This document shows, in pieces, positions 9,152-26,257 of a stretch of DNA of 64,000 nt; position 1 is the stretch's first letter; every line of letters starts with the position of its first letter. Source of the stretch: Sneathiella glossodoripedis JCM 23214 (GTDB taxonomy: Bacteria; Pseudomonadota; Alphaproteobacteria; Sneathiellales; Sneathiellaceae); NCBI RefSeq assembly GCF_000616095.1, contig NZ_BAMS01000002.1, positions 124,001 to 188,000 of the forward strand, in the 5' to 3' direction. The position numbers were made by a program, and so were the translations under genes. The notes beneath the pieces were generated by a model. The model was not told the DNA's origin, did no database searches, and worked only from the letters and a program-made list of their open reading frames with translations.

Positions 9152-9799
9152 TCACAGTCCCGCAAAAGGAGAAAATATAAAACTATAGTTCTCTTGTAAA
9201 AGAGGGCAGGGCGTCATGGTGTAAATCAGTCCTGTACGGGGTTTTCGATGATTTCCACTTTGAATTTGAAGGTTGAATTGGAAAAAACCTCCCGTCGCGC
9301 CGCAGAGGGGGAGGCTTTGACTCTGCGCATAAACGAACAATGCGGTCAACTGACCGGATTGATCGGAACTCGCAATGCCCTGGCGGTGTTCAAGGGCCCA
9401 GTATATAAGCGTCTCCCCTATATGCTCGCCCGTTTCAAGGGGCAGATTTAAAGGGTATCGCGCTCGCTTCGCCCAGATGAGGACCGATGCGTCGCCAGCG
9501 TCTGGATTAGGGGGCTGCTGGCTTGGCCATATCTGTCCGATCACCCAAATTTCCTGGCACGGATTTGCGTGCAGGTCACCGTTTCGCAGTTTTACTTCGG
9601 ATGGGGTGAGCAGTGAAAGGAGTGTTGAGGGCGGGTATTTTAGAAACCGGGCAAGCGGGTAGAGTTCAGAAAGTTTAAGTTGGCGTTTGTTTTTGAGAAT
9701 TTCACTTACTCTGGAGGGCGGTAAACTCAAGGCCTGAGCCAGGTCTGTTTTGCTATATCCCAACTGATCAAGCCTCTGTTCAATCCAGTAGTGTTTCAT
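9152..9799 (-). CDS. Xre-type repressor flanking the phage cluster
   Basis: The N-terminus is an Xre helix-turn-helix: RLDQLGYSKTDLAQALSLPP followed by SRVSEILKNKRQLKLSELYPLARFL. The rest (70-180) is beta-rich, without the Ser/Lys pair of a LexA-type S24 peptidase that I can see. The gene faces away from the phage cluster and has a perfect palindrome in its upstream region, as expected of a lysogeny-type repressor. The last 40 residues look wrong: a different frame from about 9325 reads RVKASPSAARREVFSNSTFK then FKVEIIENPVQD and stops at 9226. The annotated C-terminus may therefore reflect another indel. Confidence 0.7.
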   Translation of the reverse strand: MKHYWIEQRLDQLGYSKTDLAQALSLPPSRVSEILKNKRQLKLSELYPLARFLKYPPSTLLSLLTPSEVKLRNGDLHANPCQEIWVIGQIWPSQQPPNPDAGDASVLIWAKRARYPLNLPLETGEHIGETLIYWALEHRQGIASSDQSGQLTALFVYAQSQSLPLCGATGGFFQFNLQIQSGNHRKPRTGLIYTMTPCPLLQENYSFIFSPFAGL

Positions 9800-9830
9800 A
9801 TTGTCATCTTGTCTCTAGTTTTCCTTTGCA

Positions 9831-9847
9831 TTTACGATTTTCGTAAA
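9831..9847. promoter_or_regulatory. Perfect palindromic operator
   Basis: TTTACGATTTTCGTAAA: a perfect 7-bp inverted repeat with a TTT centre. It lies between the repressor start (9799) and the divergent rightward promoter (9853). It is the best candidate binding site for the repressor. Confidence 0.7.
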
Positions 9848-9852
9848 AACCG

Positions 9853-9881
9853 TTGACTATTTCAATATTCTAATTTATCTT
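9853..9881 (+). promoter_or_regulatory. Candidate rightward promoter of the phage cluster
   Basis: TTGACT (9853-9858) and TATCTT (9876-9881) at 17-bp spacing, five bases from the palindromic operator. It would transcribe the gene at 10083. Confidence 0.5.
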
Positions 9882-9968
9882 ATAGGTTGTATTTGGATCA
9901 AAGTAATAACCTTAAAAAGCATATTAATTTGATTTTGACAAGGAAAACTGCGGCTTAAGCAGAAAGCG

Positions 9969-9994
9969 AATGCCACCGCTAAAGTGGCATTTTA
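9969..9994 (+). terminator. Hairpin with T run in the leader
   Basis: An 8-bp stem (AATGCCAC pairing with GTGGCATT), a seven-base loop and a TTTT run. It lies between the candidate rightward promoter and the first phage gene, so it could attenuate that transcript. Confidence 0.5.
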
Positions 9995-10082
9995 AAACAA
10001 AAAAACAGGGTAGTGTGTAGAGGCTAGAAAACAGATTTGATGGGAATGTATAATCAGAATTTTGGTTTAGAGGGGTGAATTT

Positions 10083-10634
10083 ATGTCATCAGAAACAAAA
10101 AACAAGGTCAACTTACCTATTGTGGGTGGGGCCAGATGCATTGGCCGTCAAAAATTTAATGTAAATCCGGCGGCGAATGAAAATATTCCGCAGCAGGAAA
10201 TACAGAAAGCATTACGGGAAAATGAGCGGCGTATTCAGGCGGGGGAGGCACCTGTGCGCAAGCAACTGGCGTTCTGGCGCAGTTTTTCTGACGCTCAAAT
10301 TCAACATGCCCAGCAAATCTATGTGGGCTTCTTACGGCTGTATGGGGGAGGGCTGCGCACGCAGGATTACTCGTTTATGCCACGGGCAACATCCTTTGGA
10401 GAGGGTAGACCAACAGCATCAGAAGAGCTGTTCTCTCTTTGGGCCCGCACTGGTGTGGTCGAAGATGTTCAGCTGACGCCGATTCTTGAGATTCTCATTT
10501 TTGGTCTAAGCTGCAGGCAGGTCGATAGGAAACAGGGGCGGCGTAAAGGGTACGCGCGCGAAAATTTGGTTCGGGGATTGGCGCTTTACGCTAGGTTACA
10601 GGAAAAATACACCAAATTAGAGAAAACTACTTGA
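10083..10634 (+). CDS. Hypothetical phage gene in Q-like position
   Basis: A 183-residue soluble basic protein with good ribosome-binding site AGAGGGG. It is mainly helical (QQEIQKALRENERRIQAGEA, DAQIQHAQQIYVGFLRLYGG) and ends in a charged helix ARLQEKYTKLEKTT. I do not recognise a family. Its position suggests a regulator: it is the first gene after the repressor operator, and it is followed at once by a near-consensus promoter and a strong terminator before the terminase genes. That is the arrangement of the lambda Q gene with pR' and tR'. An antiterminator role is therefore an inference from layout only. Confidence 0.6.
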   Translation: MSSETKNKVNLPIVGGARCIGRQKFNVNPAANENIPQQEIQKALRENERRIQAGEAPVRKQLAFWRSFSDAQIQHAQQIYVGFLRLYGGGLRTQDYSFMPRATSFGEGRPTASEELFSLWARTGVVEDVQLTPILEILIFGLSCRQVDRKQGRRKGYARENLVRGLALYARLQEKYTKLEKTT

Positions 10635-10659
10635 CATCTCGGGGTCGTTTGGGTACTAT
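10631..10659 (+). promoter_or_regulatory. Near-consensus sigma70 promoter
   Basis: TTGACA (10631-10636), 17-bp spacer, TACTAT (10654-10659). It overlaps the stop codon of the preceding gene. The predicted start near 10666 is only about ten bases before a terminator hairpin. Confidence 0.72.
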
Positions 10660-10674
10660 ATTTCTCACAGTTCG

Positions 10675-10717
10675 AAAAGGGTCCGAAAAACCAGCTATGT
10701 TTTTCGGGCCTTTTTCT
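10675..10717 (+). terminator. Terminator just after the promoter
   Basis: A long hairpin: AAAGGGTCCGAAAAA pairs with TTTTTCGGGCCTTT with one mismatch, followed by a T-rich tract. It would end transcripts from the promoter at 10631 after about 50 bases unless antitermination occurs. Confidence 0.75.
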
Positions 10718-10888
10718 TTGGTTGTTTAGGCATGAATACATTATTTAATGCCTTGAATTAAAAATATTATTTCTGTTTCTAGGGGGTGCTGTTTCATTTT
10801 TTGAGACGACTATCGGAGCAGAAATTTTCAAAGGCATATTTTATAGCCTTCGTTTTCATACTCATTCAAAAGTAGAAAAGGAATCCAT

Positions 10889-11413
10889 ATGGGGTTGCCA
10901 GGATTAACAGAGGGTTTAGCCCGTCTGAAAGCACTGTCGCTGCGAAAATTCCAGCAAATCAAGGATATGGGTGGAGTATTGGATTGGTTGCAACAACCAT
11001 CCAATCAGTTCTCCGCTGTTGCACTGCGGGAAGTCTTTTTTCCTGAAGCCGAGGCGCAGGCGGTCAGGCGCTTTTTGGCCGATATGTTCGCTGGTGAAAT
11101 CATACTTATCGCAGATCAGAAAGAACTTGGCGAAAATGAACGCTCTGACACTCAATCCTCTGGTAAAGCAACTTCTGCCGATAACTCGGAGACAGTCGCC
11201 CGCTCTAAATTGCGCATCGATATTCGCCGCTGGCTGATGGAGCAGTTTTCGCCCGCCATTTATGGCCCCAATAAAAACACTGGCAGCATGAAAGACAAAG
11301 GAAAAGAAATCCTCAATTCCATCCGGGCCAAGGTTTATCTGCCGGAAAATGGTCGTGATGCGAATGCGCCCACTGATTTGCACTCTGATCCCGTATCGAA
11401 ACGGAATTCCTGA
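10889..11413 (+). CDS. Phage terminase small subunit (probable)
   Basis: A 174-residue protein directly upstream of the large terminase gene. The segment KLRIDIRRWLMEQFSPAIYG (about 110-129) resembles the conserved (R)VDxRKWxxxKLxPxxYG motif of many small terminase subunits, which bind the packaging start site. The rest is helical with an acidic, Ser-rich middle. Ribosome-binding site AAAAGGAA precedes the ATG. Its stop is one base from the start of the large subunit, so translation is coupled. The call rests on position and one motif. Confidence 0.65.
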   Translation: MGLPGLTEGLARLKALSLRKFQQIKDMGGVLDWLQQPSNQFSAVALREVFFPEAEAQAVRRFLADMFAGEIILIADQKELGENERSDTQSSGKATSADNSETVARSKLRIDIRRWLMEQFSPAIYGPNKNTGSMKDKGKEILNSIRAKVYLPENGRDANAPTDLHSDPVSKRNS

Positions 11414-11414
11414 T

Positions 11415-12746
11415 ATGCCGGTCGCTGAGCTGAACTTCCGTCCTCAGGCAGGGCCGCAGGAGAATTTTTTGGCTAGCCCTGCGGATATTGCCATTTATGG
11501 CGGGGCAGCGGGTGGCGGTAAAAGTTTTGCATTATTGCTGGAGCCTCTTCGCCACATTCACGATCCGGGCTTTCGGGCTGTAATTTTCCGGCGGACCGCG
11601 AAACAGGTTCGCAATGAGGGCGGATTGTGGGATGCAGCGCGCCAGATTTATGGGCCCTTTGGTGTAACCGTGAAGGAAACTGATCTACTGATGCGCTTTC
11701 CCTCCGGTGCAACCATCAGCTTTGGTGCCATGGAACATGAAAAGAACCGCTATGATTGGCAAGGGACGGAAATCACCTATCTGGGATTTGATGAATTGAC
11801 CCATTTTACAGCTCGGCAGTTTTTTTATCTGCTTAGCCGTAATCGCAGCACTTGCGGGGTTGCGCCCTATGTGCGGGCAACCTGCAATCCGGATGCTGAT
11901 TGCTGGGTTGCCGATCTGATCCGCTGGTGGATTGATGAGAAAACTGGTTATCCCAAATCGGAGCGATCGGGCAAGTTGCAGCATTTCATGCGCGACGGGG
12001 ATCAGCTTGTCTTTCAGGACGATCCGGGCAAGTTGACGAAATCGCTCACCTTTATCGCCGCCAGTATAGACGACAATCAGATCCTGCTTGAAAAAGACCC
12101 TTCCTACAAAGCGACTTTGGGTGCTCTGGATGCGGTGGAGCGCGAGCGGCTCCTGCTCGGGAATTGGAAAATTCGCCCAGAAGGTGGGATGTATTTTCGC
12201 TATGAGTGGTTCCGGGTTGTGGAGCGCTCAGAGTTGCCGAAATTTTCTGTAAAAGTGCGGGCATGGGATCTTGCTGCCACAGCCGGCGGCGGGGACTATA
12301 CCGCCTGCATTCTGATGGGCCGTGATGATCGGGGGCGCTTTTACATTCTGGATATGGATCGTTTTCAGGGATCGCCCGCAGATGTTGAGCGTCGAATGCT
12401 TGATCATGCAAAGCGGGATGGCAAGGCGGTTCAGGTTTGTATTCCTCAGGATCCGGGGCAGGCCGGCCTGTCCCAGCGTCAGGCATTGGCGCGCTTGCTC
12501 GCAGGGTTTCTGGTCCGCGCAAGAATTCCAAGCGGGAATAAAATTCAGCGGTCAGCTCCTTTTTCCGCTCAGGTAGAATGCGGAAATGTCTATCTGTTAC
12601 GGGCGAGCTGGAATTCGGATTTTCTGATGGAACTTCAAAGTTTCCCCTCTGGAAAATATGACGATCAGGTGGATGCGGTCTCTGACGCCTTTGCCGCAAT
12701 TACCTCCGCTGGCCGCCGTGGGCAGCAGGAAATGTATGGAAGCTAA
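11415..12746 (+). CDS. Phage terminase large subunit
   Basis: The DNA-packaging motor ATPase/nuclease, 443 residues. Walker A is GGAAGGGKS (29-37), Walker B is YLGFDE (122-127), and the C-terminal RNase H-like nuclease shows Asp285 in RAWDLAATAGGGDYTA and the late acidic motif KYDDQVDAVSDAF near 420. The start is ATG 11415, immediately after the small subunit stop; the longer frame upstream is inside that gene. Both ATPase and nuclease centres look intact, so the protein should be active. Confidence 0.93.
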   Translation: MPVAELNFRPQAGPQENFLASPADIAIYGGAAGGGKSFALLLEPLRHIHDPGFRAVIFRRTAKQVRNEGGLWDAARQIYGPFGVTVKETDLLMRFPSGATISFGAMEHEKNRYDWQGTEITYLGFDELTHFTARQFFYLLSRNRSTCGVAPYVRATCNPDADCWVADLIRWWIDEKTGYPKSERSGKLQHFMRDGDQLVFQDDPGKLTKSLTFIAASIDDNQILLEKDPSYKATLGALDAVERERLLLGNWKIRPEGGMYFRYEWFRVVERSELPKFSVKVRAWDLAATAGGGDYTACILMGRDDRGRFYILDMDRFQGSPADVERRMLDHAKRDGKAVQVCIPQDPGQAGLSQRQALARLLAGFLVRARIPSGNKIQRSAPFSAQVECGNVYLLRASWNSDFLMELQSFPSGKYDDQVDAVSDAFAAITSAGRRGQQEMYGS

Positions 12747-12777
12747 CTGGCGACCTTTCAAAAATAAAGGAATGATG

Positions 12778-14010
12778 ATGTACGATCCTTCAAAAGAAAG
12801 CAGGGCTTATCTGGCCATGGCTGAAAAATGGGCCTTGCCGCGCTGCCTGATGGGCGGAACACCAGCGATGAAAGCCGCTGGTACCCGCTATCTGCCGCGT
12901 CATCCGGCCGAAAATTCTACCGTTTATACCGAGCGGGCGAAACGGGCTGTTCTTCGAAATTATTTTCGCCGGACCGTGCAAAAGATATCGGGGCGCCTTT
13001 TTGGGCATGCCATTACCGCAACACCCGATCTGAACCCCCGCCTGCAATCTTACTTACGCAACGTGGATCTTGCAGCCCAGGGGCTTAACAGCTTTGCCAA
13101 AAACTGGTTTGAAGATGCTTTGGTTTGCGGCATTTCCTATGCTCTGGTGGATTATCCAAAAGCAGCCGGTGGCTTTGATGAAATGAGGCCCTATGCTGTT
13201 CCCATTCGCGCAGAAAATCTGATTTTCGCAGCCGCCGATGAAAACAGTCTGTCGCCGCGCCTGTCGCAAATCCGCATTCGCGAACAGCACCCGGAAGTGA
13301 GCGGCTCCGATGAAAAACTGGTTGATCAGATCCGTGTTCTTACACCTGATGAATGGCAGCTTTACCGAAAATCTGACGGCAGAAACTGGTCAATGGTAGA
13401 TAGCGGCGAAAACTCTCTTGGGGAAGTGCCGCTCGTCGCCCTTTATACCAACCGCACAGGTTTTATGCAGGGAACTCCGCCGCTTGAGGATTTGGCCTAT
13501 CTGAACCTTGAGCATTATCAGATCCGTTCCGATCAGCGGAATGCCCTGAATGTGGCATCATTTCCCATTCTTGCCGCTTCCGGGTATGAAGCGGAAATTG
13601 ACGGCCCCATTGAAGTGGGCCCCAACAAGGTGCTGACCACCTCAGACACCAATGGCAAATATTATTATGTGGAAAGCAGCGGCGCGGCACTTGAAGCCGG
13701 AGCCCGCGAGCTTCACGAACTGGAAAAAGCAATTCAGCTTTTCGGCCTGCAGTTTGAAAGTGGCGCTGTGCCCGAAACTGCAACTGGTCGCCGGCTCGAT
13801 GCAGCTGATGCATTATCCCCGATTTATGGCATGGTGATGGAAATTGAGGACAGTCTCAATCAGATGATGCGTCTGTTTGCTAAATGGGACGGGATTGAAA
13901 ATACAGGATCGCTGTCCTTGACGCTAAGCCGCGAGGAAGTGCCGGGCAGGGAGGTAATAAAAGAAGAGCAGAAAGAGCGACAGCTTTTCAATGGCGCTGC
14001 CGATGGATAG
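12778..14010 (+). CDS. Phage portal protein, DUF4055 family
   Basis: A 410-residue protein in the portal position, with the DUF4055 pattern YLPRHPAENSTVYTERAKRA near the N-terminus, then a conserved helical core, YLNLEHYQIRSDQRNALNVA, and EAGARELHELEKAIQLFGLQ. Portals form the dodecameric ring at the head vertex through which DNA passes. ATG 12778, the third of three consecutive ATG codons, has an AAGGA site at the best distance. DUF4055 portals differ from the HK97-type portal of the Rhodobacter gene transfer agent. Confidence 0.85.
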   Translation: MYDPSKESRAYLAMAEKWALPRCLMGGTPAMKAAGTRYLPRHPAENSTVYTERAKRAVLRNYFRRTVQKISGRLFGHAITATPDLNPRLQSYLRNVDLAAQGLNSFAKNWFEDALVCGISYALVDYPKAAGGFDEMRPYAVPIRAENLIFAAADENSLSPRLSQIRIREQHPEVSGSDEKLVDQIRVLTPDEWQLYRKSDGRNWSMVDSGENSLGEVPLVALYTNRTGFMQGTPPLEDLAYLNLEHYQIRSDQRNALNVASFPILAASGYEAEIDGPIEVGPNKVLTTSDTNGKYYYVESSGAALEAGARELHELEKAIQLFGLQFESGAVPETATGRRLDAADALSPIYGMVMEIEDSLNQMMRLFAKWDGIENTGSLSLTLSREEVPGREVIKEEQKERQLFNGAADG

Positions 14011-14035
14011 CGCTTCCACTAGCCGTCAACCAATT

Positions 14036-14056
14036 GCCCCGCAAGGGGCTTTTTTT
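14036..14056 (+). terminator. Small hairpin with T run inside the cluster
   Basis: GCCCC-GCAA-GGGGC followed by seven T. It lies between the portal and scaffold genes, so it may attenuate or process the morphogenesis transcript rather than end it. Confidence 0.65.
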
Positions 14057-14081
14057 ATGTCCAAAATCAACGAGGATGATC

Positions 14082-14642
14082 ATGTTCGACTTTCCAGATA
14101 ACATTAATAATATCGATGAAGTTCCTGAAAAATATAGAAATTTATATACTGAAAATTCTGATGATCAGGGCGGTTTTCAACTTGATGAAAACCTGTCGCA
14201 AATGGCCAGTCGCGCTTCTGATCTGCAAGATCGGATCGATCAGTTAAACGCCCGTGAAAGTGAACTGGTTATCGAAAATACCGCCATTGCGGCGCTTGGC
14301 TCTGTGGGCGGAAATCCGGCGTTACTAATGCCATTTTTAAAAAACAGCCTGCAGGTCGCCACCGGTGATGACGGGCAGAAAACGGTTCACGTGCGCCCGG
14401 ATATGACAGGTGCCGCTGGTTTCAAGCCAGAGGATGGGCGCGACAGCGCCACCGATCTGGTCAGGTATCTGCGCACTCATCCTGATTTCAGTGCAGCTTT
14501 TACCGGCGGGCAGAAAAGCGGGGGCGGTATGAGCCCCGCCGCCGCCGGGGGTACGACCCTCACACTAAGATCAACTGAGCAATCAAGTATCAATGCGAAA
14601 CTTGAAGAGATCGCCGCAGGAAAAGTGACAGTTACGCCATAG
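14082..14642 (+). CDS. Candidate scaffolding protein
   Basis: A 186-residue acidic protein between portal and coat genes, where scaffolding proteins are usually coded. It has a coiled-coil-like helix (DENLSQMASRASDLQDRIDQLN), a middle domain (NPALLMPFLKNSLQVATGDD), and a Gly/Ala-rich tail SGGGMSPAAAGG. Scaffolds guide coat assembly and leave the finished head. ATG 14082 has GAGG six bases upstream. The identity is inferred from position and composition. No head protease gene is present, in line with P22-like assembly. Confidence 0.6.
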   Translation: MFDFPDNINNIDEVPEKYRNLYTENSDDQGGFQLDENLSQMASRASDLQDRIDQLNARESELVIENTAIAALGSVGGNPALLMPFLKNSLQVATGDDGQKTVHVRPDMTGAAGFKPEDGRDSATDLVRYLRTHPDFSAAFTGGQKSGGGMSPAAAGGTTLTLRSTEQSSINAKLEEIAAGKVTVTP

Positions 14643-14688: not shown

Positions 14689-15818
14689 ATGACAAATGAT
14701 GTATCGGCTGTAATGCCGAAAATACTGGCGCGTGGTCTGCTGGGATTGCGTGAGCAGGCCATCATGCCGCGGCTGATCAATGGCAGTTTCAGCGCCGAAG
14801 CCGCAGAAAAAGGTGACACAATCGATGTTCCGATCCCCTTTGATCTGGAAGCGGAAAATGTAATACCCGGTGCGACACCTCCCACACCGGCTTCCAGTGA
14901 AATTCAAAAAGTACAGATCGAGTTGAATAACTGGAAAAAAGCGAGTTTTCATCTGACCGATAAGGAAATGATGGAAGTTGATGCCCATGAAAGCTTCATT
15001 CCCATGCAGGTTGGATCAGCCATTCGCGCCCTTGCCAATGCGGTAAACAAGTCCGTTCATGCGGAATATAAAGGCATTTACGGGCTTGTCGGAACGGCGG
15101 GGACAACGCCTTTTGCAAGCGGCACTTCTGATGCGACTGCTGCGCGAAAATTGCTGCTGAAACAGCGGGCACCAAAGGAAAATCGGTATGGGGTGCTGAA
15201 TTTTGATGCCGAAGCAAACGCCCTTGATCTGTCGGCTTTTGCAGATGCAGACAAGGCAGGTGGGAACAGCGTCAAAATCGAAGGGGAAATTGGCCGAAAG
15301 TTTGGAATTGACTGGTTTAGTGATGACCATGTGCTGCGCCATGAAACGGGCGCCGCAACGGGCGGGACGATTACAATTGACAGCGTCAGCGGAAATCAGG
15401 TGACGGCTTCGGGCTTTTCAGCCACTCCAGTGGTTGGTGATGTATTTTCCGCAACTGGGGGGGAGCAACACTATGCAGTCGTTGCTGTTACTGCCATCGA
15501 CTCAGATACTTTCAACATGCAGGTTTCCCCGGCGCCGGCCCGGAACTCATCGGCGGAACAGAGATTGAATTTGCCAGCAGTCACGAAGTCAATCTGGTGT
15601 TCAATCGTGATGCCTTTGCTTTTGCCAATCGCCCGCTTGCGCAAAGTGGTGCGGGCGCGGGACTTGGCAGTCAGATCATGTCCATGACTGATCCGCAAAC
15701 AGGTCTCTCCCTAAGGCTGGAAGTCAGCCGTCAGTATAAACAGGTGATCTGGGAGTTTGACATTCTATGGGGGGTTAAACTGGTGCGGCCTGAACTGGCT
15801 GTTCGCCTTGCCGGGTAA
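14689..15818 (+). CDS. Major capsid protein, P22 coat-like (frameshift)
   Basis: The head shell protein. The N-terminal MTNDVSAVMPKILARGLLGL and KGDTIDVPIPFDLEAENV, the middle FIPMQVGSAIRALANAVNKS, and the late LVFNRDAFAFANRPLA match the P22 gp5-like coat group. A small beta-rich insertion (about 225-275, GTITIDSVSGNQVTASGFSA) may correspond to the accessory domain of this fold. One base is missing near 15537: the frame reading GPELIGGTEIEFASSHEVNL continues to 15818. Restored length is 376 residues. It has an AAGGAG site and follows the scaffold candidate. Confidence 0.75.
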
Positions 15819-15886
15819 AGCGGCTTTTGTGGGGAAGGTTTTGGCCTTCCCCTTTTTGATGGATGCAAATGATACGGGGCGAAAGA

Positions 15887-16312
15887 ATGGGATTAATCGT
15901 TGAAACCGGAGAGGGCATTGAGGGTGCAAACAGTTATCTGTCGCTATCACAAGCGGATGCCCATTTTGCCGCACTGGGGAATGAAGAATGGGCAGCCGCA
16001 TCGGATGGCCTGCGGGAACAGGCATTGATACGCGCAAGCCAGCAGGCTGATTTTTATGACTATCCGGGCACTGTTTTGAAAATAGTGCAGGGTCTGAAAT
16101 GGCCGCGTAGCGGTGCAGTGGATGATGAGGGGCGTCAACTGCGCGGTCTGCCATTTGCACTTAAGGCTGCTGTTTTGGAACTGGCCCCCGGGTTTTTGCA
16201 AATCCCAGCGCCCACCACTGACGGTCCGCAGATTGTGCGTGAGAAGGTCGGGATGCTTGAACTTGTATATTCGGACAGGAAAGCCACTCCCGCTTTGCCA
16301 CACGATTACTGA
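15887..16312 (+). CDS. Head-tail adaptor, DnaT-like connector
   Basis: A 141-residue protein. The N-terminal GANSYLSLSQADAHFAALGN and ALIRASQQADF are typical of the small phage proteins labelled DnaT-like, which occupy the adaptor (gp6) position after the coat gene. Adaptors dock on the portal ring. ATG 15887 is chosen; in-frame ATGs at 15863 and 15869 are less well placed. It is a single short gene with no membrane segment. Confidence 0.7.
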   Translation: MGLIVETGEGIEGANSYLSLSQADAHFAALGNEEWAAASDGLREQALIRASQQADFYDYPGTVLKIVQGLKWPRSGAVDDEGRQLRGLPFALKAAVLELAPGFLQIPAPTTDGPQIVREKVGMLELVYSDRKATPALPHDY

Positions 16313-16361
16313 AACAGATTGGTGCCGCACGCAGCGCCTTGCAAGTGACAAGAGGGTAGCC

Positions 16362-16721
16362 ATGAACAAAAGCAGGATCAAACAGGTAATTGAGCGGGTA
16401 TTCAACCGCTCGGGCGAGTTCATCATTCCCGTGCAGGTCAAGCGTGTGCTGGAACAGAGCCATATTCCGGGCGGCGAGCCTGAAGTGAGTGAAATGACTT
16501 ATTCCGCCCGGCTGTTCCCTATGACGGCACGGCGCACGCGCAGCGCCATGGAAGAGGGGCCGGTGCTGGACAAAGCAGTGCAGCTCGCGCTGCTGCTGAT
16601 GGAAAATGAAATGCCGGCACCGGGCGATATTTTGCAGATTGGTGCAGATGAATTTGCAATCAATCAGGTGGCAAGCATGGATCACGGATCGGGGTTCCTG
16701 TTTGAGGTGTGGTATCAATGA
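16362..16721 (+). CDS. Head-tail stopper (probable)
   Basis: A 119-residue protein in the stopper (gp7) position. It is basic at the N-terminus (MNKSRIKQVIERVFNRSGEF) and then beta-rich (FIIPVQVKRVL, GDILQIGADEFAINQVASMD). The length and strand pattern fit minor head-tail joining proteins, but the match is by position rather than a signature motif. AGAGGG precedes the ATG. Its stop overlaps the next start as ATGA. Confidence 0.6.
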   Translation: MNKSRIKQVIERVFNRSGEFIIPVQVKRVLEQSHIPGGEPEVSEMTYSARLFPMTARRTRSAMEEGPVLDKAVQLALLLMENEMPAPGDILQIGADEFAINQVASMDHGSGFLFEVWYQ

Positions 16722-17107: not shown

Positions 17108-17116
17108 GAGATATAG

Positions 17117-18426: not shown

Positions 18427-18797
18427 CGGAGCAGTTTCTGGGGGCGTGCAGGCGCCGCTTGCTTGAACTTGTGCCCGTCAATTCCAAAGGCGTGAGCGCA
18501 GCCGCCATTGAGCGGCAGGCGCAAAAGCATTTAACCGTATCTGAAGGCGTACCACTGCCACCCGCGCAGGAAGGATTTCCTGACTGTTTAGCGCATGTGT
18601 GGGATTGGTTTGCAGAACTGCTGCCGGTAATGGCTGGTGACTGGCAGAGGGGACATGTCCCGATACTGGATTTGGCGGCGACTATTGAGCTGCTGTTTGG
18701 CATCAAGCCCCACGGCTGGGAGGTGCGACTGGTTCTGCAAATGATCGGGCAGTTTCGAAAAGTATGTGAGCCGTTGAATTTCAACAGGACTGAATGA
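18423..18797 (+). CDS. Tail assembly chaperone, gpT-like extension
   Basis: A 124-residue frame that is probably made mainly as the C-terminal part of a -1 frameshift product with the preceding gene, giving about 250 residues. Independent start at ATG 18423 is possible but the only ribosome-binding site is weak. The segment FPDCLAHVWDWFAELLPVMA and the helix GWEVRLVLQMIGQFRKVCEP fit the acidic/helical T extension that recruits tail tube protein. The coding frame is -1 relative to the G-like gene. Confidence 0.68.
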   Translation: MTEQFLGACRRRLLELVPVNSKGVSAAAIERQAQKHLTVSEGVPLPPAQEGFPDCLAHVWDWFAELLPVMAGDWQRGHVPILDLAATIELLFGIKPHGWEVRLVLQMIGQFRKVCEPLNFNRTE

Positions 18798-18816: not shown

Positions 18817-19497
18817 ATGCCCGAGGATTTAGGCACCATTGGACTTGAAATTGAAACAAGGGGATATGAGCAGGTTATGGAGAATTTGGACCGATTGCTG
18901 GCAAAAACTGCGGATGTAACGCGCGCATATCGTGCACCGGTTACCCCAGCGTTGAAAGGACAAAGCTCAGCCCGGTCTGCTCAGGGTGAGCTCAATGAAA
19001 TTTCGCTTACCGCCAATCATGTTTCCAAAAGTCTGCGCAGCGTCTTGGGGCGCAGTTTCGATCAATTTTTAACGCGCGGGGCAGATGCAAAAAGCCTGCT
19101 GCGGGATCTGGAAAAAGAAGCCCTCGCGTTTGGATCATCCCTTTTTACAGGTAAACGGCAAACAACAGGGGGGGATCTGTTTTCCGGTTTGTTCAGTGGC
19201 GCAGGGGATCTGTTGAGCCGGGCCTTTGCCGGATTTGCAAGCGGTGGTGAGTTTCGTGTTGGCGGTGCCGCTGGCCGCGACAGAAATCTGGTGGGCCTGC
19301 GTTTGAGCCGTGGTGAGCAGGTGCGTATTCAAACACCGTCCCAGCAACGCCGTGAAAAAGAACCGGCAGCAGCGGGCAATTTCACTTTTAACTATCAAAT
19401 CAGCACACCGGATGTGGACGGGTTTCGTCGCAGTCAAGGCCAGTTGCAGGCAGAAGCGCTTAAATCCGCCCGCCGGGTGCTGGACAGAAACGGGTGA
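18817..19497 (+). CDS. Short tape measure protein, GTA gp11-like
   Basis: A 226-residue protein in the tape measure position. It starts DLGTIGLEIETRGYEQVMEN, has a helical middle (SKSLRSVLGRSFDQFLTRGA), a Gly-rich hydrophobic segment (GGDLFSGLFSGAGDLLSRAF), and the FASGGEFRVGGAAGRDRNLV loop common in alphaproteobacterial short tape measures such as the Rhodobacter GTA gp11 (about 220 residues). Tape measure length sets tail length, so this particle should have a short tail. GGAGGGAG precedes the ATG. Confidence 0.78.
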   Translation: MPEDLGTIGLEIETRGYEQVMENLDRLLAKTADVTRAYRAPVTPALKGQSSARSAQGELNEISLTANHVSKSLRSVLGRSFDQFLTRGADAKSLLRDLEKEALAFGSSLFTGKRQTTGGDLFSGLFSGAGDLLSRAFAGFASGGEFRVGGAAGRDRNLVGLRLSRGEQVRIQTPSQQRREKEPAAAGNFTFNYQISTPDVDGFRRSQGQLQAEALKSARRVLDRNG

Positions 19498-19502
19498 ACG
19501 GT

Positions 19503-20105
19503 ATGGGATTTCACGATATTCGATTTCCGCAACATATTTCCTATGGTGCGGTGGGCGGGCCGCGTTTTTCGACAACCATTCAGCAACTGAATTCCGGGCA
19601 TGAACGGCGCAATATAAACTGGTCCGCCGCACGGCGGGAATATCGGGTTGATGTCAGCCCAAGCCGCGGCGATGAATGGCGGGCTTTGCTGGACTTTTTT
19701 CACGCGCGTCTTGGCCGGGCTTATGGCTTTCGGTTAAAGGATTTCGCCGATTTTGAACTTATCGACGGAGTTATCGCCACAGGAGATGATACGCGTCAGA
19801 GTTTTCAGATTTGCAAAATTTATGAAGCGGCAGGCGACTGGCCCCATCGCCGTGATTTGAAAAAGATTGTACCGGGAAGCGTCTCCGTTCGTCTGGATGG
19901 GATTTTGCGCGAAACGGGCTGGTCGGTGGATACTGGAACGGGTGAGCTGAGCTTCGATACGCCACCAGATTCCGGAGCCGTCATATCAGTGAGCTGTGAA
20001 TTTGATGTGCCGGTCCGCTTTGACACTGACCTTATGGAAGCAGCCATCCCCGGGCCGGATGTTCATCACTGGCAAAGTGTTCAACTGGTGGAGCTGCGCG
20101 TATGA
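19503..20105 (+). CDS. GTA gp12-like distal tail protein (DUF2460)
   Basis: A 200-residue DUF2460/TIGR02217 family protein. It opens MGFHDIRFPQHISYGAVGGP and contains RREYRVDVSPSRGDEWRALL and FFHARLGRAYGFRLKDFADF, the family's strongest signatures. It forms the distal tail ring between tube and baseplate hub. ATG 19503 fits the family's MGFH opening; a GTG at 19494 overlaps the previous stop. Normal length. Confidence 0.9.
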   Translation: MGFHDIRFPQHISYGAVGGPRFSTTIQQLNSGHERRNINWSAARREYRVDVSPSRGDEWRALLDFFHARLGRAYGFRLKDFADFELIDGVIATGDDTRQSFQICKIYEAAGDWPHRRDLKKIVPGSVSVRLDGILRETGWSVDTGTGELSFDTPPDSGAVISVSCEFDVPVRFDTDLMEAAIPGPDVHHWQSVQLVELRV

Positions 20106-20947
20106 AACCAATTTCAGCGGAGATGGAAGCGCATCTGGCCGGGGACGTGTCGAGCCTTTGCAGTTGCTGGCGGATTGTCAGAGGCGATGGGGTGGAAATC
20201 TGTCTCACCGATCACGACCAAAATATTGAGTTTGAAGGGAAGAGCTATCTGTCCAGTGATGGGTATGACCGAAGCGCATTGAAAAACAGTGTTGGTCTGA
20301 CAACGGATGAAACAGAAATTGTGGGGCTGATCAGTTCAAACTGGCTGGCGGAGGCCGATTTGCAAAATGGAGCCTATGACAATGCCGAGATTTTCTATTT
20401 TCTGGTGAACTGGCAGGACCTTTCAATGGGCAGTATTGAGTTGCGGCGCGGGCGAATTGGCGAGGTGCGCTGGAGCCACGGACAGTTCAGTGCGGAGCTT
20501 CGGGGATTGGGTGATGCCTTTCGCCGCCAGATGGGCCATGTGATTACCCCCGGATGTCGCGCGGACCTGGGAGATGGTGCATGCACAGTGCCGCTGGAGG
20601 CGCTGGGGCAGGATGTCAGCATTAAAGAAGTGCTGAGCGATTATGAATTTGAGCTGGAAGGCTATCTGGCGAGCGGACATTCAATGGTGGGGGGATTGCT
20701 GCGTTTTGGCGATGGAGCAAATGCAGGCCGATCCTTTGAAATTATTGATTTTGACGGTGCATTGGCGCGGGCTCGTCTGTTTACAGCTCCGCCAGAGCTT
20801 GTGCAGATCAATGATGGCGCGCGTCTTTATCCCGGATGTGACAAGCGCTTTGCAACCTGCCGTGATGTTTTTGCCAACGTGGAGAATTTCAGGGGGTTTC
20901 CCCATGTGCCGGGATTGGATGCATTGCTGGAGCCCGCGGATGGATAA
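20102..20947 (+). CDS. GTA gp13-like baseplate hub (DUF2163)
   Basis: A 281-residue DUF2163 family protein: it starts ISAEMEAHLAGDVSSLCSCW, shows RRGRIGEVRWSHGQFSAELR and FRRQMGHVITPGCRADLGDG, and ends with a Cys-rich DKRFATCRDVFANVENFRGF. The Cys residues (CRADLGDGAC, CDKRFATC) may bind an iron-sulfur cluster, as reported for the gp13 of the Rhodobacter GTA. Its start overlaps the previous stop as ATGA, so the tail-tip genes are translationally coupled. Confidence 0.9.
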   Translation: MKPISAEMEAHLAGDVSSLCSCWRIVRGDGVEICLTDHDQNIEFEGKSYLSSDGYDRSALKNSVGLTTDETEIVGLISSNWLAEADLQNGAYDNAEIFYFLVNWQDLSMGSIELRRGRIGEVRWSHGQFSAELRGLGDAFRRQMGHVITPGCRADLGDGACTVPLEALGQDVSIKEVLSDYEFELEGYLASGHSMVGGLLRFGDGANAGRSFEIIDFDGALARARLFTAPPELVQINDGARLYPGCDKRFATCRDVFANVENFRGFPHVPGLDALLEPADG

Positions 20948-21356
20948 GGCACAGGGTATCGACTGGATCGCCCGCCAGTGGCTTGGTGTGCGCTGGCAAC
21001 ATCAGGGGCGGAGCCGCGAATTTGGGGTGGACTGTATCGGCTTGTGCCTGAAAGTGTTCGAAAGTGCAGGCTACGTATTTGAAGATGAAACCGATTACGC
21101 CCGCCGGAGCGATGGAAGTCGCCTGCATCGGGTTTTGTCGCAGAAGCTGGATCGGGTGCGTGCCGCGGACGCGCAGGCGGGTGATCTGGCACTGTTTAAC
21201 GAAGGGCGCGGCGCAGTGCATGTGGGGATCCTGTCGCGCGTGGGTGAGGAGTTATCTCTCATTCATGCCTATGCGGGGCGCAGAAAAGTTGTGGAGCAAC
21301 CTCTGTCAACTTTTGCCCGGCCTGCAGCAATTTTCAGATTAAAGGGGACAGACTAG
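20940..21356 (+). CDS. NlpC/P60 cell wall peptidase, GTA gp14-like
   Basis: A 138-residue NlpC/P60 peptidase of the tail tip. The catalytic Cys32 is in EFGVDCIGLC, His94 in GAVHVGILSR, and a second His109 in LSLIHAYAG, so the triad is complete. In the Rhodobacter GTA and related phages this enzyme cuts peptidoglycan during DNA entry. The start overlaps the hub gene by eight bases. Confidence 0.9.
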   Translation: MDKAQGIDWIARQWLGVRWQHQGRSREFGVDCIGLCLKVFESAGYVFEDETDYARRSDGSRLHRVLSQKLDRVRAADAQAGDLALFNEGRGAVHVGILSRVGEELSLIHAYAGRRKVVEQPLSTFARPAAIFRLKGTD

Positions 21357-24300
21357 TGGCAACATTGGCATTGAGCGTAGCCGGGGCGGGTCTTGGCCAG
21401 TTGGCGGGAGTTGGCGCAGGGACCGGCTGGATGCTGGGATCCACCCTTGGTCGGTTGCTGACCGCGGAAAAACAGAGTGGCGGTGGAAATCTGGCCCCTT
21501 TGAAAGTGACCGGCGCATCCTACGGAGCGTCAATCCCGATCATTTTTGGCACCATGCGCCTTAGCGGTCAGGTGATCTGGCTTGGAAAATCGCGAACGGT
21601 CAAGGGCGCGCGAGGCGGCGGCAAGGGCAGTGTTGGCGGCGGTCAGGCTGGCATGTCCCAGTCATACAGGGTTGCAAGCTTTGCGATATTGATCTGCGAG
21701 GGCGAGGTGGATTCCCTGCTTAAAATCTGGGCGAACGGAACGTCACTGTTTGATAGTGAGGGGTTGGATGCGCGGCAGGTTTCAGGCCTTTCCTTTCGCT
21801 TTTATAAGGGAGATGACACTCAGGAGTGTGATCCGCTGATTGTTGCGGAGCAGGACGGGGGGAGTGCACCTGCTTACCGGGGATGCAGTTATGTGGTGTT
21901 TGAAGATCTGAACCTGTCGTCTTTTGGCAATCGTATCCCCAATTTTGAATTTCTGGTAACCCGGCAGGCGACGGACAGCTATCCGTCCCGGGCGGGGCAA
22001 GCTGCAACCTATTATCCGCAGCAGATGGTACTGCACAGCCAGCGCGGTGATGTGGTGACTTGTGAAACAGGCGCAGTTGGCAAAGCCCGTCTGTTGGATT
22101 TGCAGACGGTTTCCATTCGAAGCGAAGCCGATGTGAATGTCACCTTTCCAGAATTGGACAATCCATTTCGGGGGCTTAGCCGGGATCGGGATGGGAATAT
22201 CTGGGTTGGCAGCAAGCGCGCCGGTGAAAATGCCAGAATTCACAAATTCAATTCCCTGATCATGGCTGAGGAGGCTGAAGCCTTGCTTCCTGATGGGGTG
22301 GGTAACATCAGATGGTCCGTTGATATACAGAACCCGCTGGGTGATACGGCGGTGCAGGTTGCAGGGAGTGACATGCAGGCACAGGTGCTGGTTTTCGGCC
22401 CCACGCTTGATGTGCTCAAGCTTGTTGATGTTGAGGCGCAATCCTGCGCTGGTGCGCTGCGCGACCGGCAGGAACAGGCGTGGGTTGCCATGTTCGGTTA
22501 CCTGCCCGCAAGTCCAACCCATGATTTGCAGATCGTGCGGGTGTCGATTACAGCGCAGTCAGATCCAACGGGAACATTGATTGTCCCTGAGCATGAAATT
22601 TTCAATGTAACGTCGAGCGATCTGGGTGCGGGGTACGCGCTTGATACCAATAAAGAATGCCGGATGCTGCGGTATATTGCCGGGCAGGAAGAGCTGGTAT
22701 TTCAGCATGAGGATTGCCTGTTCAAATGGTCAACCGTCAGTAAATCTGTGACGGAAATTCGCGGCGGGATTTCAAATTACAGCTTCATCGGGCATGCCTA
22801 TGAGGGAGATGAGCTGGTCTTTCTAACGCCTGATTTGTGGGTTGTGTATTTTCGCGATGCTGACCTTGAAGAGGTTGCCCGGGTTGATTTGCGCAACTTT
22901 GCGGATCTTGGCTCCCTGGCGGGCGTTGTTCATGATCCGCTTTCGGACAGTGTGCTGGTACTGCGCCGTGATTTGCCAGCATTGCGCTGTTTTCTGCGAC
23001 GTCAGACGGGTAGCGGCGCGGCATATGCGGCTATTCTGTCTGAGCTGTGCGAGCGGGCGGGGCTATCGCCGGAGCAGTATGATGTGAGCGGGGTAAGGGG
23101 TGCCTGCGACGGGTTTGCATCCGCCCGCCCGGCACGCATTCGTGAAGTTGCTGAACCGTTGATGCTGGCGGGCCAGTTGCAAATGCATGAGCGTCAGGGA
23201 CAGCTTGTCATCGCCAAAAAGAAAGCCGGCGAGCCGCTAGTAATTGAACAATCAAGTATGATGGCGCAGCCGCACTATCACCGTTTGCAGGAAAGTGATC
23301 TGCCTGTTGAGATACGACTTGGTTATCTGGCGAGTGATGCCGGTTTCCAGCAAGGTGCACAACACGCGCGGCGCGCCCATGCCCCTTATGGCACGCAAGC
23401 GGGGCAGGGCGTTGAAAAGCTGACACTTCCCATGGCGCTGGATGCCAGCACTGCGAAGGGAATTTGTCAGCAAAGCCTTTGGGATGGCTGGCAGGAAAGA
23501 CTGCTTGCGGATATGCAGTTATCGAGAGAGTTTCTGGCGCTGGACCCATCGGACAGGATCAAGATTGTCGATGAAGGGGGCAGCCCCCTTTACGAAGGAT
23601 GGATCAACGAAAGCCATTTGGGCGCTGCGCTGGATTTGGAAATCCAATTGACGGGGGCGGCAAATATTGGGGGGGATATGCCCATCGTTGCGGATGCGGG
23701 ATCGGGATATGTGGAGCTGCCCGTTCGCCGGCCGTCATCTGCAGAGCTGCATTTGCTCAACATTCCGCTGTTAAGAGACGAGGAAGCGACAGCGGGTGCC
23801 GGCAGCCGTTTGTATATGGCGGTTGGCGCGCAATCACCATCGCAATGGACAGGGGCGGAAGTTTATCGATCGGCGCTGGGGGACCGGTATGATCCTGTCA
23901 CGACGGTTGAGGAGGATGTGGCCTGGGGAGTGGCTGCAACAGCATTGGGCGCGCCGTTGGACGGCGTGTGGTGCACGGATCGCGCCAATAGTCTGGTCGT
24001 GCGGTTCGCCGATGAAAATGCGCCCCTTGAAAGTGTGAGCGAGCTTGAGATGCTGAACGGTGCCAATGCGGCGCTGGTTGGGGAGGAAATCATCCAGTTT
24101 GCCACCGCAAAGCGATTGCTTGATGGAAGTTATGAGCTTAGCACATTGCTGCGGGGCCGGCGCGGAACGGATTACGCGGTTGCAAAGCATCGAGTGGGGG
24201 AGAAGGTATTATTGCTGAGCCCGCAAACCATCAGTTCTGCATTGCTGCCACTTAATGCAATTGGGCAGGGATATTATTACCGTGCGGCCGGTATCGGTCA

Positions 24301-24679
24301 GTATGTGGAGGAGGCAACCACGCACCGATATGTCCATCAGGGCCGTGATTTGATGCCCTACAGCCCGGTGCATGTGACTGCCAGCAGATCACCCGGCGAA
24401 TTACAGCTTACTTGGGTTCGTCGCAGCCGTCTGGGCGCGGCTGGACTTGCGGATCCTTTGCCGCTGGCTGAGCAGTCAGAGCGCTATGAAATCGTGTTTG
24501 GCTATGAGGCAAAAGCCGTCTCGCATTTTGTGAGCGGGCAAAGCGCTTTTGCCTATGATCTGGCGCAATTTAACGCGGATTTTACCCTTTCGATGGGTGA
24601 ATTGCCGGAGCTTTCAATTGAAATCTATCAACATTCAGATGCTGTCGGGCGCGGGTTCGCAGCGAAGGAGGTCGTTTAA
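21356..24679 (+). CDS. GTA gp15-like tail-tip megatron
   Basis: An 1107-residue central tail-tip protein. The N-terminus has a Gly-rich hydrophobic stretch (LGQLAGVGAGTGWMLGSTLG), then GASYGASIPIIFGTMRLSGQ, characteristic of the GTA gp15 / phage tail_3 group. A WD/NHL-like beta domain appears inserted at about 215-510 (repeated short strands such as GNIWVGSKRAGENARIHKFN), and the C-terminal part has LRGRRGTDYAVAKHRVGEKV, shared with this family. It starts GTG at 21356, overlapping the peptidase stop. It is thought to carry receptor binding and the DNA exit channel. Confidence 0.88.
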   Translation: MATLALSVAGAGLGQLAGVGAGTGWMLGSTLGRLLTAEKQSGGGNLAPLKVTGASYGASIPIIFGTMRLSGQVIWLGKSRTVKGARGGGKGSVGGGQAGMSQSYRVASFAILICEGEVDSLLKIWANGTSLFDSEGLDARQVSGLSFRFYKGDDTQECDPLIVAEQDGGSAPAYRGCSYVVFEDLNLSSFGNRIPNFEFLVTRQATDSYPSRAGQAATYYPQQMVLHSQRGDVVTCETGAVGKARLLDLQTVSIRSEADVNVTFPELDNPFRGLSRDRDGNIWVGSKRAGENARIHKFNSLIMAEEAEALLPDGVGNIRWSVDIQNPLGDTAVQVAGSDMQAQVLVFGPTLDVLKLVDVEAQSCAGALRDRQEQAWVAMFGYLPASPTHDLQIVRVSITAQSDPTGTLIVPEHEIFNVTSSDLGAGYALDTNKECRMLRYIAGQEELVFQHEDCLFKWSTVSKSVTEIRGGISNYSFIGHAYEGDELVFLTPDLWVVYFRDADLEEVARVDLRNFADLGSLAGVVHDPLSDSVLVLRRDLPALRCFLRRQTGSGAAYAAILSELCERAGLSPEQYDVSGVRGACDGFASARPARIREVAEPLMLAGQLQMHERQGQLVIAKKKAGEPLVIEQSSMMAQPHYHRLQESDLPVEIRLGYLASDAGFQQGAQHARRAHAPYGTQAGQGVEKLTLPMALDASTAKGICQQSLWDGWQERLLADMQLSREFLALDPSDRIKIVDEGGSPLYEGWINESHLGAALDLEIQLTGAANIGGDMPIVADAGSGYVELPVRRPSSAELHLLNIPLLRDEEATAGAGSRLYMAVGAQSPSQWTGAEVYRSALGDRYDPVTTVEEDVAWGVAATALGAPLDGVWCTDRANSLVVRFADENAPLESVSELEMLNGANAALVGEEIIQFATAKRLLDGSYELSTLLRGRRGTDYAVAKHRVGEKVLLLSPQTISSALLPLNAIGQGYYYRAAGIGQYVEEATTHRYVHQGRDLMPYSPVHVTASRSPGELQLTWVRRSRLGAAGLADPLPLAEQSERYEIVFGYEAKAVSHFVSGQSAFAYDLAQFNADFTLSMGELPELSIEIYQHSDAVGRGFAAKEVV

Positions 24680-25488
24680 TGTCATTACTTGATTTACCTC
24701 AAATCGCCGAGGCGCAGGCTGCGGCCTATGTCACGTCCAATGATGCGGATGCACTGCTGGAGAAGGCGTTGTGTCGGGGAAAAGTCGATCACGATGCCAG
24801 TGGTGGGAGCTTTTCGATGGATGTTACTGATTTCAAAGAAAATTTTTACCATCGCATTAGCGGTACAGCCAGGGCAGCGTTTACTGTTACGGTTCCAGCC
24901 TCCCAGCGGCCATTTATGGTGGAAAATGGAACCCGCGCCGAGGCAACCATCGGGACCGGAAGCGGTGCGATGGTTGCGATCAAGAGCGGTGAATGCCAGC
25001 TCTGTTACGGAGATGGGAGCGGTGTGCGCGGTCTTGTAATAACCGCAACCGCGCCTGCTGTGAGCCTTTTTTCAGGTGCGCTTGTAACGCTGAGTAGCGA
25101 TTTTTCCGTTTCAAGCACCAGTCTGACACCCGTGAATTGGGCTTCCGCCGAATATGACCAAGGGGGGTATTTTGCAGGCTCAGGAAATAGTGAGCTGGTG
25201 GTGCCTGCTGGCGTTAGCAAGGTTGTGCTTCGGGCGCAGGTCAGATGGAACGAAAATTCCAGCAATACGCGCGAGTTGCTTTTTTATAAAAACGGTAGCG
25301 CCAGTTATAGCGGCCGAGCTTATGTGAGCGAGGATGCGCAGGATAACCTGATCCAGAATATTACATCACCCGCATTGGCAGTTACCACCGGAGACAGCTT
25401 TCAGTGTGTGGTCTGGCAGAATAGCAAAAACGATCAAAAGGTGCTCAGTGGTCCGAGCAGCTGGTTTTCAATCGAGGCCGTTGGTTAA
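24679..25488 (+). CDS. Tail fibre-like adhesion protein
   Basis: A 269-residue protein starting one base into the megatron stop. The first half (1-120) has FYHRISGTARAAFTVTVPAS and VMVAIKSGECQLCYG-like strands; the C-terminal half (130-269) has the YDQGGYFAGSGNSELVVPAG and ARAQVRWNENSS-type pattern of C1q/TNF-like jelly-roll fibre heads. It most likely makes host surface contact. Such genes vary quickly in phages, so the identity of the receptor cannot be inferred. Confidence 0.6.
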   Translation: MSLLDLPQIAEAQAAAYVTSNDADALLEKALCRGKVDHDASGGSFSMDVTDFKENFYHRISGTARAAFTVTVPASQRPFMVENGTRAEATIGTGSGAMVAIKSGECQLCYGDGSGVRGLVITATAPAVSLFSGALVTLSSDFSVSSTSLTPVNWASAEYDQGGYFAGSGNSELVVPAGVSKVVLRAQVRWNENSSNTRELLFYKNGSASYSGRAYVSEDAQDNLIQNITSPALAVTTGDSFQCVVWQNSKNDQKVLSGPSSWFSIEAVG

Positions 25489-25500
25489 TCAGGAGGGAAA

Positions 25501-25704
25501 ATGGAACGACTGGAACAGGAACTGGGCGCGCTTCGCACCCGAATTGAAACAATGCATCTGGATATGGTGGAGGTTCGCGAGGATTTGAAAGGGTTGATGC
25601 GCGAGGTCAGCATGGGACGCGGTGCGGTCAAGGTGCTGGGGGTTGTTGGAACGTTGATCGTAGCCGTCAGCAGTTTCGGGGCCTGGTTGGCGCAGATTTT
25701 ATAG
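25501..25704 (+). CDS. Small coiled-coil membrane protein, holin candidate
   Basis: A 67-residue protein. Residues 1-38 form a charged coiled coil (MERLEQELGALRTRIETMHL), followed by one membrane segment (VLGVVGTLIVAVSSFGAWLA). Ribosome-binding site AGGAGGG. This size and layout resemble small hemolysin XhlA-like or holin-associated proteins coded at the end of phage tail modules. Lysis function is an inference from position. Confidence 0.6.
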   Translation: MERLEQELGALRTRIETMHLDMVEVREDLKGLMREVSMGRGAVKVLGVVGTLIVAVSSFGAWLAQIL

Positions 25705-25731
25705 GATTATCATCAAAGGAGGAAAACAGGA

Positions 25732-25938
25732 ATGCATGGAATTATGGAAAATCTGGGTGATGCAACATTATTTGCCGGGCAGATGCTGGCTTTGCTTGTC
25801 ACGGCAGCCACAATAATTACGGCGCTTACGCCCAGCAAGTCTGACAATGAATTGCTGGATCGGGTTTTGGGGTACCTGAATTTGATCGCCGGAAATGTGG
25901 GACACAATCGTAATGCAGACGACCGGGAAATTTACTAG
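25732..25938 (+). CDS. Small membrane protein of the phage cluster
   Basis: A 68-residue protein with one hydrophobic helix (residues about 12-32, [20 protein letters not shown]) and a polar C-terminus. AAAGGAGG precedes the ATG. It follows the coiled-coil membrane protein by 27 bases. Together they could be a holin pair, but no homology is obvious. Confidence 0.5.
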
Positions 25939-25948
25939 GGGGGGTAAA

Positions 25949-26257
25949 ATGGTAATGATTATCAAGAAAAAGGACAGCATCGAACTGCAGGCATTTAATG
26001 GAGCGGCTTTTGGGCTGCAAAGGGCGGCGAACGACAATCAGCCACTTGATGCCGAGCGGCTGCTTGAAGAGATCGAGGGGGCGGCCAACGACAACTATGA
26101 AGAGGAAGAACTGTCAGGCCTTGGCCTGACGGGACTTACATGCGCAGAGCCGCAGGATGAAGAGGGGGGGATCATGGCGCGCGCCGAAGTCGATACCCCC
26201 GCCGAGCTTGATTTCACGCATTCCGTATCGCGCCGGCGAGGATTTTTAAGTGAATGA
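25949..26257 (+). CDS. Hypothetical protein at the end of the phage cluster
   Basis: A 102-residue acidic protein, with two similar AANDN motifs (AANDNQPLDAERLLEEIEGA then AANDNYEEEEL). The AANDN(Q/Y) string is seen in many small alphaproteobacterial proteins. There is a strong GGGGGGG site before ATG 25949. No membrane segment. Last gene on this strand before the convergent GrlR-like gene. Function unknown. Confidence 0.55.
   Translation: MVMIIKKKDSIELQAFNGAAFGLQRAANDNQPLDAERLLEEIEGAANDNYEEEELSGLGLTGLTCAEPQDEEGGIMARAEVDTPAELDFTHSVSRRRGFLSE

Follow-up and report, generated by a model that had tools for sequence, protein, structure and literature searches.

What kind of element is a complete set of phage-particle genes in a bacterial chromosome, when neither integrase nor replication genes are recognised within it? 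The question is raised by a stretch of 64,000 nucleotides from Sneathiella glossodoripedis JCM 23214 (contig NZ_BAMS01000002.1, positions 124,001 to 188,000; hereafter the window, in whose own numbering all coordinates are given unless stated otherwise). Here a complete particle cluster runs from the small terminase gene (terS) to a fibre gene over 14.6 kb, at approximately 10.9-25.5 kb. A preliminary description had proposed a candidate gene transfer agent (GTA), possibly a P22-like head joined to a GTA tail, or else a decayed prophage. In this study I argue that the cluster is an independently domesticated, P22-headed GTA, known here from its genes alone, and I put the probability of this reading at about 0.7.

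The element combines complete head, packaging and tail genes with vertical inheritance at a fixed locus and with purifying selection, which are marks of a GTA. It does not have the marks that define the family of RcGTA, the GTA of Rhodobacter (coat type and clade), a temperate prophage (an integrase and a scattered history) or a tailocin. The more specific proposal, that this GTA is of separate origin, is built on a P22-type scaffolded head, and resembles RcGTA by convergence in its tape measure of about 230 amino acids (aa) and its raised G+C content (GC), I consider probable, somewhat less firmly than the reading as a whole.

Distribution, inheritance and selection

The cluster was at first drawn from 9152 to 26257. 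The core of that span stands, but its limits do not: the conserved unit covers approximately 10083-25938 and consists of a 183-aa gene, the terS-to-fibre block and two small downstream open reading frames (ORFs), whereas the XRE gene at the left end is patchy in the genus and the membership of the last 3' ORF is doubtful. The portal gene is present in 19 of the 23 other Sneathiella genomes at 53-72% identity, S. chinensis (G010), S. sedimenti (G021) and S. litorea (G017) among them, and gp15 and gp13 are single copy in 20 and 16 of 24 genomes, respectively. In G024, the sole genome of another genus of the family, the portal was not found, and the left flank is present without the cluster.

This left flank is made up of an amino-acid ABC transporter operon, an alanyl-tRNA-editing type gene, a rhodanese and a PALP enzyme, and the cluster or its remnant adjoins the PALP gene in all 18 genomes whose sequence includes the flank (window genome, G000, counted); in the remaining six the sequence did not extend to the flank or the flank was not found. 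The expectation that related genomes would hold the same cluster at the same locus was therefore borne out across the genus. The distance from PALP to terS is 1.2-3.3 kb in 16 genomes and 13.3 kb in the window genome, while G005, a near relative of the latter, has only regulators at this place; the extra DNA between flank and cluster in the window genome is partly common to G005. On the right side lies a tRNA-bearing region at variable distance. Every late gene is open, with unchanged spacing, in 13 genomes, and the terS-to-fibre span is 14.25-14.78 kb in all ten measured.

A tree of ten cluster proteins from 11 genomes was compared with those of rpoB, which is unlinked to the cluster, and of five flank genes, which are linked to it. 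Of eight splits, the cluster tree has six in common with rpoB and seven with the flank genes, and five are common to rpoB and the flank genes, some splits being weakly supported; the coat row of the window genome retained an out-of-frame end. Distances correlate strongly (Mantel, r = 0.91, p = 0.0002 for rpoB; r = 0.97, p = 0.0001 for the flank genes).

In four close pairs among G003, G021, G017 and G019, the ratio of nonsynonymous to synonymous substitution rates (dN/dS) is 0.027-0.318 over 20 cluster genes and 0.008-0.163 over the five flank genes; the pairs G018/G007, G020/G022 and G011/G004, largely saturated or higher (up to 0.54), were excluded. The coat has the lowest value in each pair (0.027-0.052), terL, the large terminase gene, and portal lie at 0.056-0.114 and gp15 at 0.121-0.140, and the second chaperone is highest. 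The test for purifying selection suggested for terL and the tail genes thus turned out positive for head and tail alike, and a head at least as constrained as the tail speaks for DNA packaging.

An integrase just outside the cluster had been named as an observation that would tell against a GTA. Tyrosine integrases are present in all nine genomes searched, and none lies nearer than 175 kb on the contig of the cluster (in G018 the contig ends some 20-26 kb from it; serine recombinases and att repeats were not part of the search). Distribution, trees, selection and this search fit a vertically inherited, selected set of genes for a DNA-packaging particle, and not a mobile or simply decaying prophage.

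Relation to RcGTA and to phages

The preliminary description called the gene order almost one-to-one with that of RcGTA. Gene order and the homology of gp12 to gp15 agree with this; the tape measure does so weakly, and tube, head and gp13 clade do not. RcGTA and RcGTA-like elements (Rhodogtaviriformidae) resemble the Sneathiella cluster in late-gene order, gp12-15, a short tape measure, a length of approximately 14-15 kb, vertical inheritance and raised GC at the first and second codon positions (GC1 and GC2). Clear homology is confined to gp12-15, of which gp12, gp13 and gp15 match RcGTA structures (6tba). RcGTA differs in its HK97-type coat and protease, where the Sneathiella cluster has a P22-type coat, a scaffold, a DUF4055 portal, another tube and a gp13 outside the RcGTA clade. 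The tube matches PDB 8xan_B, and the RcGTA tube was not matched at the cut-off used. The portal and coat types had been recognised correctly from the start (PF13264, PF11651, phrog_145, phrog_283), and no head protease was recognised among 20 ORFs scanned, again as first described.

In a gp13 tree of 43 rows, whose bootstrap had not settled, the Sneathiella rows form a single clade (99/95) that adjoins prophages of genomes G120, G109 and G065 (95/92). This clade falls outside another (100/99), whose 17 rows comprise roseophages, loci that carry short tape-measure ORFs and an HK97-type record. When RcGTA is added, in a quick tree without bootstrap, it enlarges the latter to an 18-row clade (99), from which Sneathiella is again excluded (97). 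A larger group of Sneathiella and the RcGTA clade was not rejected (p = 0.178). As gp13 was the sole gene tested for clade membership and the larger group was not rejected, these trees leave an RcGTA-related origin open and slightly lower the odds of the reading as an independently domesticated GTA. An element of the RcGTA family that had exchanged its head genes for P22-type ones would explain the gp12-15 homology, the weak similarity of the tape measure to an HK97-type record and the non-rejected larger group; I regard it as unlikely, as RcGTA falls in the 18-row clade without Sneathiella, whose gp13 adjoins prophages with tape measures of 814 and 829 aa.

The idea of a GTA tail on a P22 head fares similarly: the tail tip is GTA-like in gp12-15, but the tube is unlike that of RcGTA, gp13 lies outside its clade, and a phage already joins both types of module. 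This is Dinoroseobacter phage vB_DshS-R5C (Nanhaivirus), which has a P22-type coat, the adaptor Ad1, a partly similar tube and GTA-like gp12-15; it differs in being, as described, a 77.9-kb lytic phage, in possessing replication genes and in the length of its tape measure (1018 aa), and its gp13 groups with RcGTA, not with Sneathiella. Roseophage RDJL-Phi-1 likewise has GTA-like gp12-15, described as a module common to phages and RcGTA (PMC3070671, in the part available), and differs as a complete phage with a tape measure of 1029 aa. The YuA/M6-like Pseudomonas phages share the DUF4055-type portal (37% identity in the YuA group) and differ in being complete phages; their genomes and that of RDJL-Phi-1 measure 57-63 kb. 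The closest phage proteins show 37% identity to the portal (YuA/M6-like), 42% to the coat and 53% to the terL product. The prophages of G120, G109 and G065, the nearest gp13 relatives, are alike in tape-measure end, gp12-15 and fibre, but do not match the Sneathiella head genes. Portal relatives outside the genus were found at E 1e-30 in four genomes among 385 searched; most of the four share coat, scaffold, adaptor or tube, and none matched gp12, gp13 or gp15. By description, the element can also be likened to BaGTA and BhGTA, independently domesticated phage particles of separate origins (PMC9662315, in the part available).

The tape measure is 209-248 aa long in all 13 complete Sneathiella copies; the tape measures of related phages and prophages range from 814 to 1204 aa (814 and 829 aa in the G120 and G109 prophages, 1204 aa in Mwe-JY26, and those of R5C and RDJL-Phi-1 in between). 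The ends of the 814- and 829-aa proteins match the Sneathiella protein, and because these belong to the neighbours in the gp13 tree, the shortening to about 230 aa probably happened apart from that in RcGTA. The GC of the cluster exceeds that of the fetched surroundings in ten of ten genomes, with GC1 and GC2 raised in all ten and GC3 in eight; a rise arising from codon positions 1 and 2 is described for RcGTA-like clusters (PMC7360931, in the part available). A separate observation concerns MW091529.1 (L199), a sewage 'bacteriophage' record with HK97 protease and coat, a 181-aa tape measure and gp12-15, which looks like an RcGTA-like chromosomal cluster.

Decay, spread and other uses of the particle

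Could the cluster be the remains of an old integration, persisting without function? Losses do occur: G001 has an internal deletion that leads from the portal start directly into the fibre, G005 has retained the XRE gene and the regulator and lost all structural genes, the coat frame of the window genome is broken, and no integrase or replication genes are recognised in the cluster. (The other genomes without a portal are incomplete: G006, 66% complete, has a contig that stops inside terL, and in G009, 65% complete, portal, gp13 and gp15 were not found.) Nevertheless, the 13 genomes with open late genes and unchanged spacing, the low dN/dS and a protein divergence of 60% without decay do not fit a decaying prophage for the genus as a whole, and I find this option, raised in the preliminary description, rather unlikely.

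The broken coat deserves separate consideration. In the window genome the coat is frameshifted and 332 aa long, where relatives have 374-378 aa after start choice, and it is open to the end in all 15 relatives compared. In this genome rpoB is also spread over two frames (G000 contig C4:3748-7799), and neighbouring conserved genes are split in 5 of 20 and 4 of 18 cases (the coat being one of the four), as against 0/23, 0/14 and 0/14 in controls with G005 or G011 as target and 1/25, 2/23, 1/24 and 1/18 in other pairs. As conserved genes, rpoB included, are split elsewhere in this assembly, the coat frameshift is likely an assembly error, the alternative being a genuine loss in this strain, and single frameshifts in this assembly should not be read as decay.

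A prophage or satellite that still passes from cell to cell and keeps its remaining genes at other places in the genome would be consistent with the phage-type regulator, with the XRE gene kept in part of the genus and with the homolog of the regulator in another prophage of the same genome. It is very unlikely, given a cluster tree that agrees with the host and not the scattered locations of temperate prophages, one locus throughout the genus, and the lack of a nearby tyrosine integrase in the nine genomes searched for that type. A tailocin-type killing particle, or another of the non-DNA uses to which phage tails are put, would account for the conserved tail, peptidase and fibre, but is least likely of all, as the head and packaging genes that tailocins have lost are present here and at least as constrained as the tail.

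Several points weigh against a domesticated GTA. Besides the broken coat frame and the loss of all structural genes in G005, the 183-aa gene was not detected in G006, and the cluster branch of the window genome is long (0.597; G014, 0.639). No reduction in carbon content relative to viral homologs was seen: 32 of 86 comparisons gave a lower value, and the mean difference was +0.04, without control for host GC. RcGTA's small terminase is proposed to lack an N-terminal DNA-binding domain (PMC6854486, in the part available); the Pfam match of the Sneathiella protein covers the C-terminal part, but its structure model, whose confidence is too low to settle the presence of this domain (pLDDT 66, pTM 0.43), is nearest to full-length Sf6 TerS (weakly, E 0.14). 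Furthermore, the head, which I take to be P22-sized, may hold the whole cluster, so that size does not exclude self-transfer. Finally, particle production, packaging of host DNA, transfer, regulation and release are what I infer from the genes.

Genes of the cluster and their proposed action

The proposed order of parts from terS to fibre was confirmed, with all named parts found, the stopper and second chaperone mainly by position and conservation. All genes below are on the forward strand except the first, a divergent XRE/Cro-CI type regulator and possible repressor (9152..9799, reverse strand; HTH_3, E 9e-9), with counterparts in G018, G010, G011, G014, G023, G004, G005 and G006 and none seen in the others.

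The 183-aa gene (10083..10634) precedes terS in 20 genomes, in two of which a contig end truncates it, and would lie beyond the contigs of G007 and G008. The DUF6456 hidden Markov model (GafA/GafYZ-type activator) did not match the protein of G000. A comparison of its profile with DUF6456 aligned 99 columns (E 3.4e-4, probability 38%, score 30.0); an unrelated family of the cluster reached 25.3, and none of 300 column permutations exceeded 20.0. This likeness to a domain reported for GafA homologs (PMC9638019, in the part available) is only suggestive. A fold search gave weak sigma-region-4 matches, none with E under 0.001. The window genome has a second prophage-like region, equipped with an integrase (G000:C11, approximately 669800-694300; L220, L221), where a 261-aa homolog neighbours the terminase gene; the phage collection gave no match to one query, and the best relative outside the genus, in G182, has no phage-like neighbours by eye. 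The gene probably encodes a regulator of phage late genes that has been retained alongside the cluster, and it may activate the operon.

The packaging and head genes begin with a small terminase of the Sf6 type (10889..11413; PF20901, E 4e-8; phrog_1482) and the large terminase (11349..12746, conserved part from approximately 11415; PF03237, PF17289), whose ATPase and nuclease motifs are kept across 21 aligned rows. They continue with the DUF4055 portal (12658..14010, conserved part from approximately 12772; PF13264, E 2e-31; phrog_145), the head scaffolding protein (14034..14642; phrog_206, E 3e-16), the P22-type major coat (14689..15687, its frame broken before the end in the window assembly; PF11651, phrog_283) and the head-tail adaptor Ad1 (15863..16312; phrog_477, E 1e-27). 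A probable stopper or head-closure protein (16113..16721) is conserved in the genus over its last 119 aa and is named by position and a weak match to phrog_161.

Next come the tail terminator (16709..17107; PF13554, phrog_179), the Phage_tube_2 tail tube (17117..18022; PF18906, E 3e-39; PDB 8xan_B, E 8e-47), a tail assembly chaperone (18034..18426; phrog_313) and a probable second chaperone (18288..18797, conserved part from approximately 18423; position and conservation). The short tape measure of 226 aa (18817..19497) aligns with the C-terminus of the long tape measures found in phages and has no convincing PDB match. The tail tip comprises the gp12-type distal tail protein (19494..20105; DUF2460, PF09343, E 2e-60; 6tba, E 7e-38), the gp13-type baseplate hub (20102..20947; phiJL001-Gp84 type, PF09931, E 1e-53; 6tba, E 5e-45), a gp14-type NlpC/P60 peptidase (20643..21356, conserved part from approximately 20940; PF00877) and the large gp15-type tail-tip protein (21356..24679; Rcc01698-type, PF23666, PF13550; 6tba, E 2e-47). 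The conserved fibre (24679..25488) matches the tail protein family phrog_11660.

Two small conserved proteins follow: one of 67 aa with a coiled coil and a membrane segment by eye, a holin-like candidate (25501..25704; 52-60%; phrog_37133, unknown, and weakly phrog_1193), and one of 68 aa with a membrane segment by eye, putatively for release (25732..25938; 47-72%; phrog_9685, unknown). The doubtful 3' ORF (25895..26257) is weakly conserved, with a single counterpart (38%) in G020.

Around the cluster, the insert at approximately 1-9139, partly shared with G005, includes a histidine kinase gene and one of PhzC/PhzF type, and at 26914-34458 two RTX calcium-binding repeat proteins and a large TPR protein have counterparts only in G018 and G007 among the regions compared. 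Several relatives have a 220-aa lipase-like gene, named by eye, after the small ORFs (G003 25831-26493, L030; G001 14376-15041); the window showed none at the corresponding place. Eight 'viral' contigs of IMG/VR (L071-L076, L078, L079) carry a portal 60-72% identical to that of Sneathiella and may be pieces of the chromosomal cluster.

As a domesticated GTA, the element would descend from a siphovirus, its head of the P22/DUF4055 type and its tail tip GTA-like, that settled at one locus in an ancestor of Sneathiella. It would now be inherited as a selected host gene set, without integrase and replication genes and with a tape measure shortened to roughly one quarter of that of its relatives. 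The phage-type regulator would switch the operon on, and the terminase would fill the scaffolded P22-type capsid through the portal, in headful manner, with DNA that is presumably the host's. Delivery to a related cell would fall to a short tail whose hub, peptidase and tip are of GTA type, and the small membrane proteins would help release. With a P22-sized head, as I assume, the DNA moved would be far longer than the 4.5 kb limit of RcGTA, up to the element's own whole cluster.

The formal classification recognises three independent origins of GTAs (PMC9662315), and the table of a 2019 survey gives no RcGTA-like cluster for the order of Sneathiella (PMC6821227, in the part available). No description of this cluster was found in the literature searched on GTAs, prophages and Sneathiella, full texts not being covered. 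Screens that take RcGTA as their model can overlook elements of this kind, and viral catalogues may enter them as viruses. If the reading is correct, this is a further GTA origin in the Alphaproteobacteria, and the capture of phages for gene transfer recurs, with a convergence that is measurable in tape-measure shortening, raised GC and a fixed locus. Because its head type differs from that of RcGTA, the element would offer a natural test of which traits make a GTA, and the named isolates S. chinensis, S. litorea and S. sedimenti carry it.

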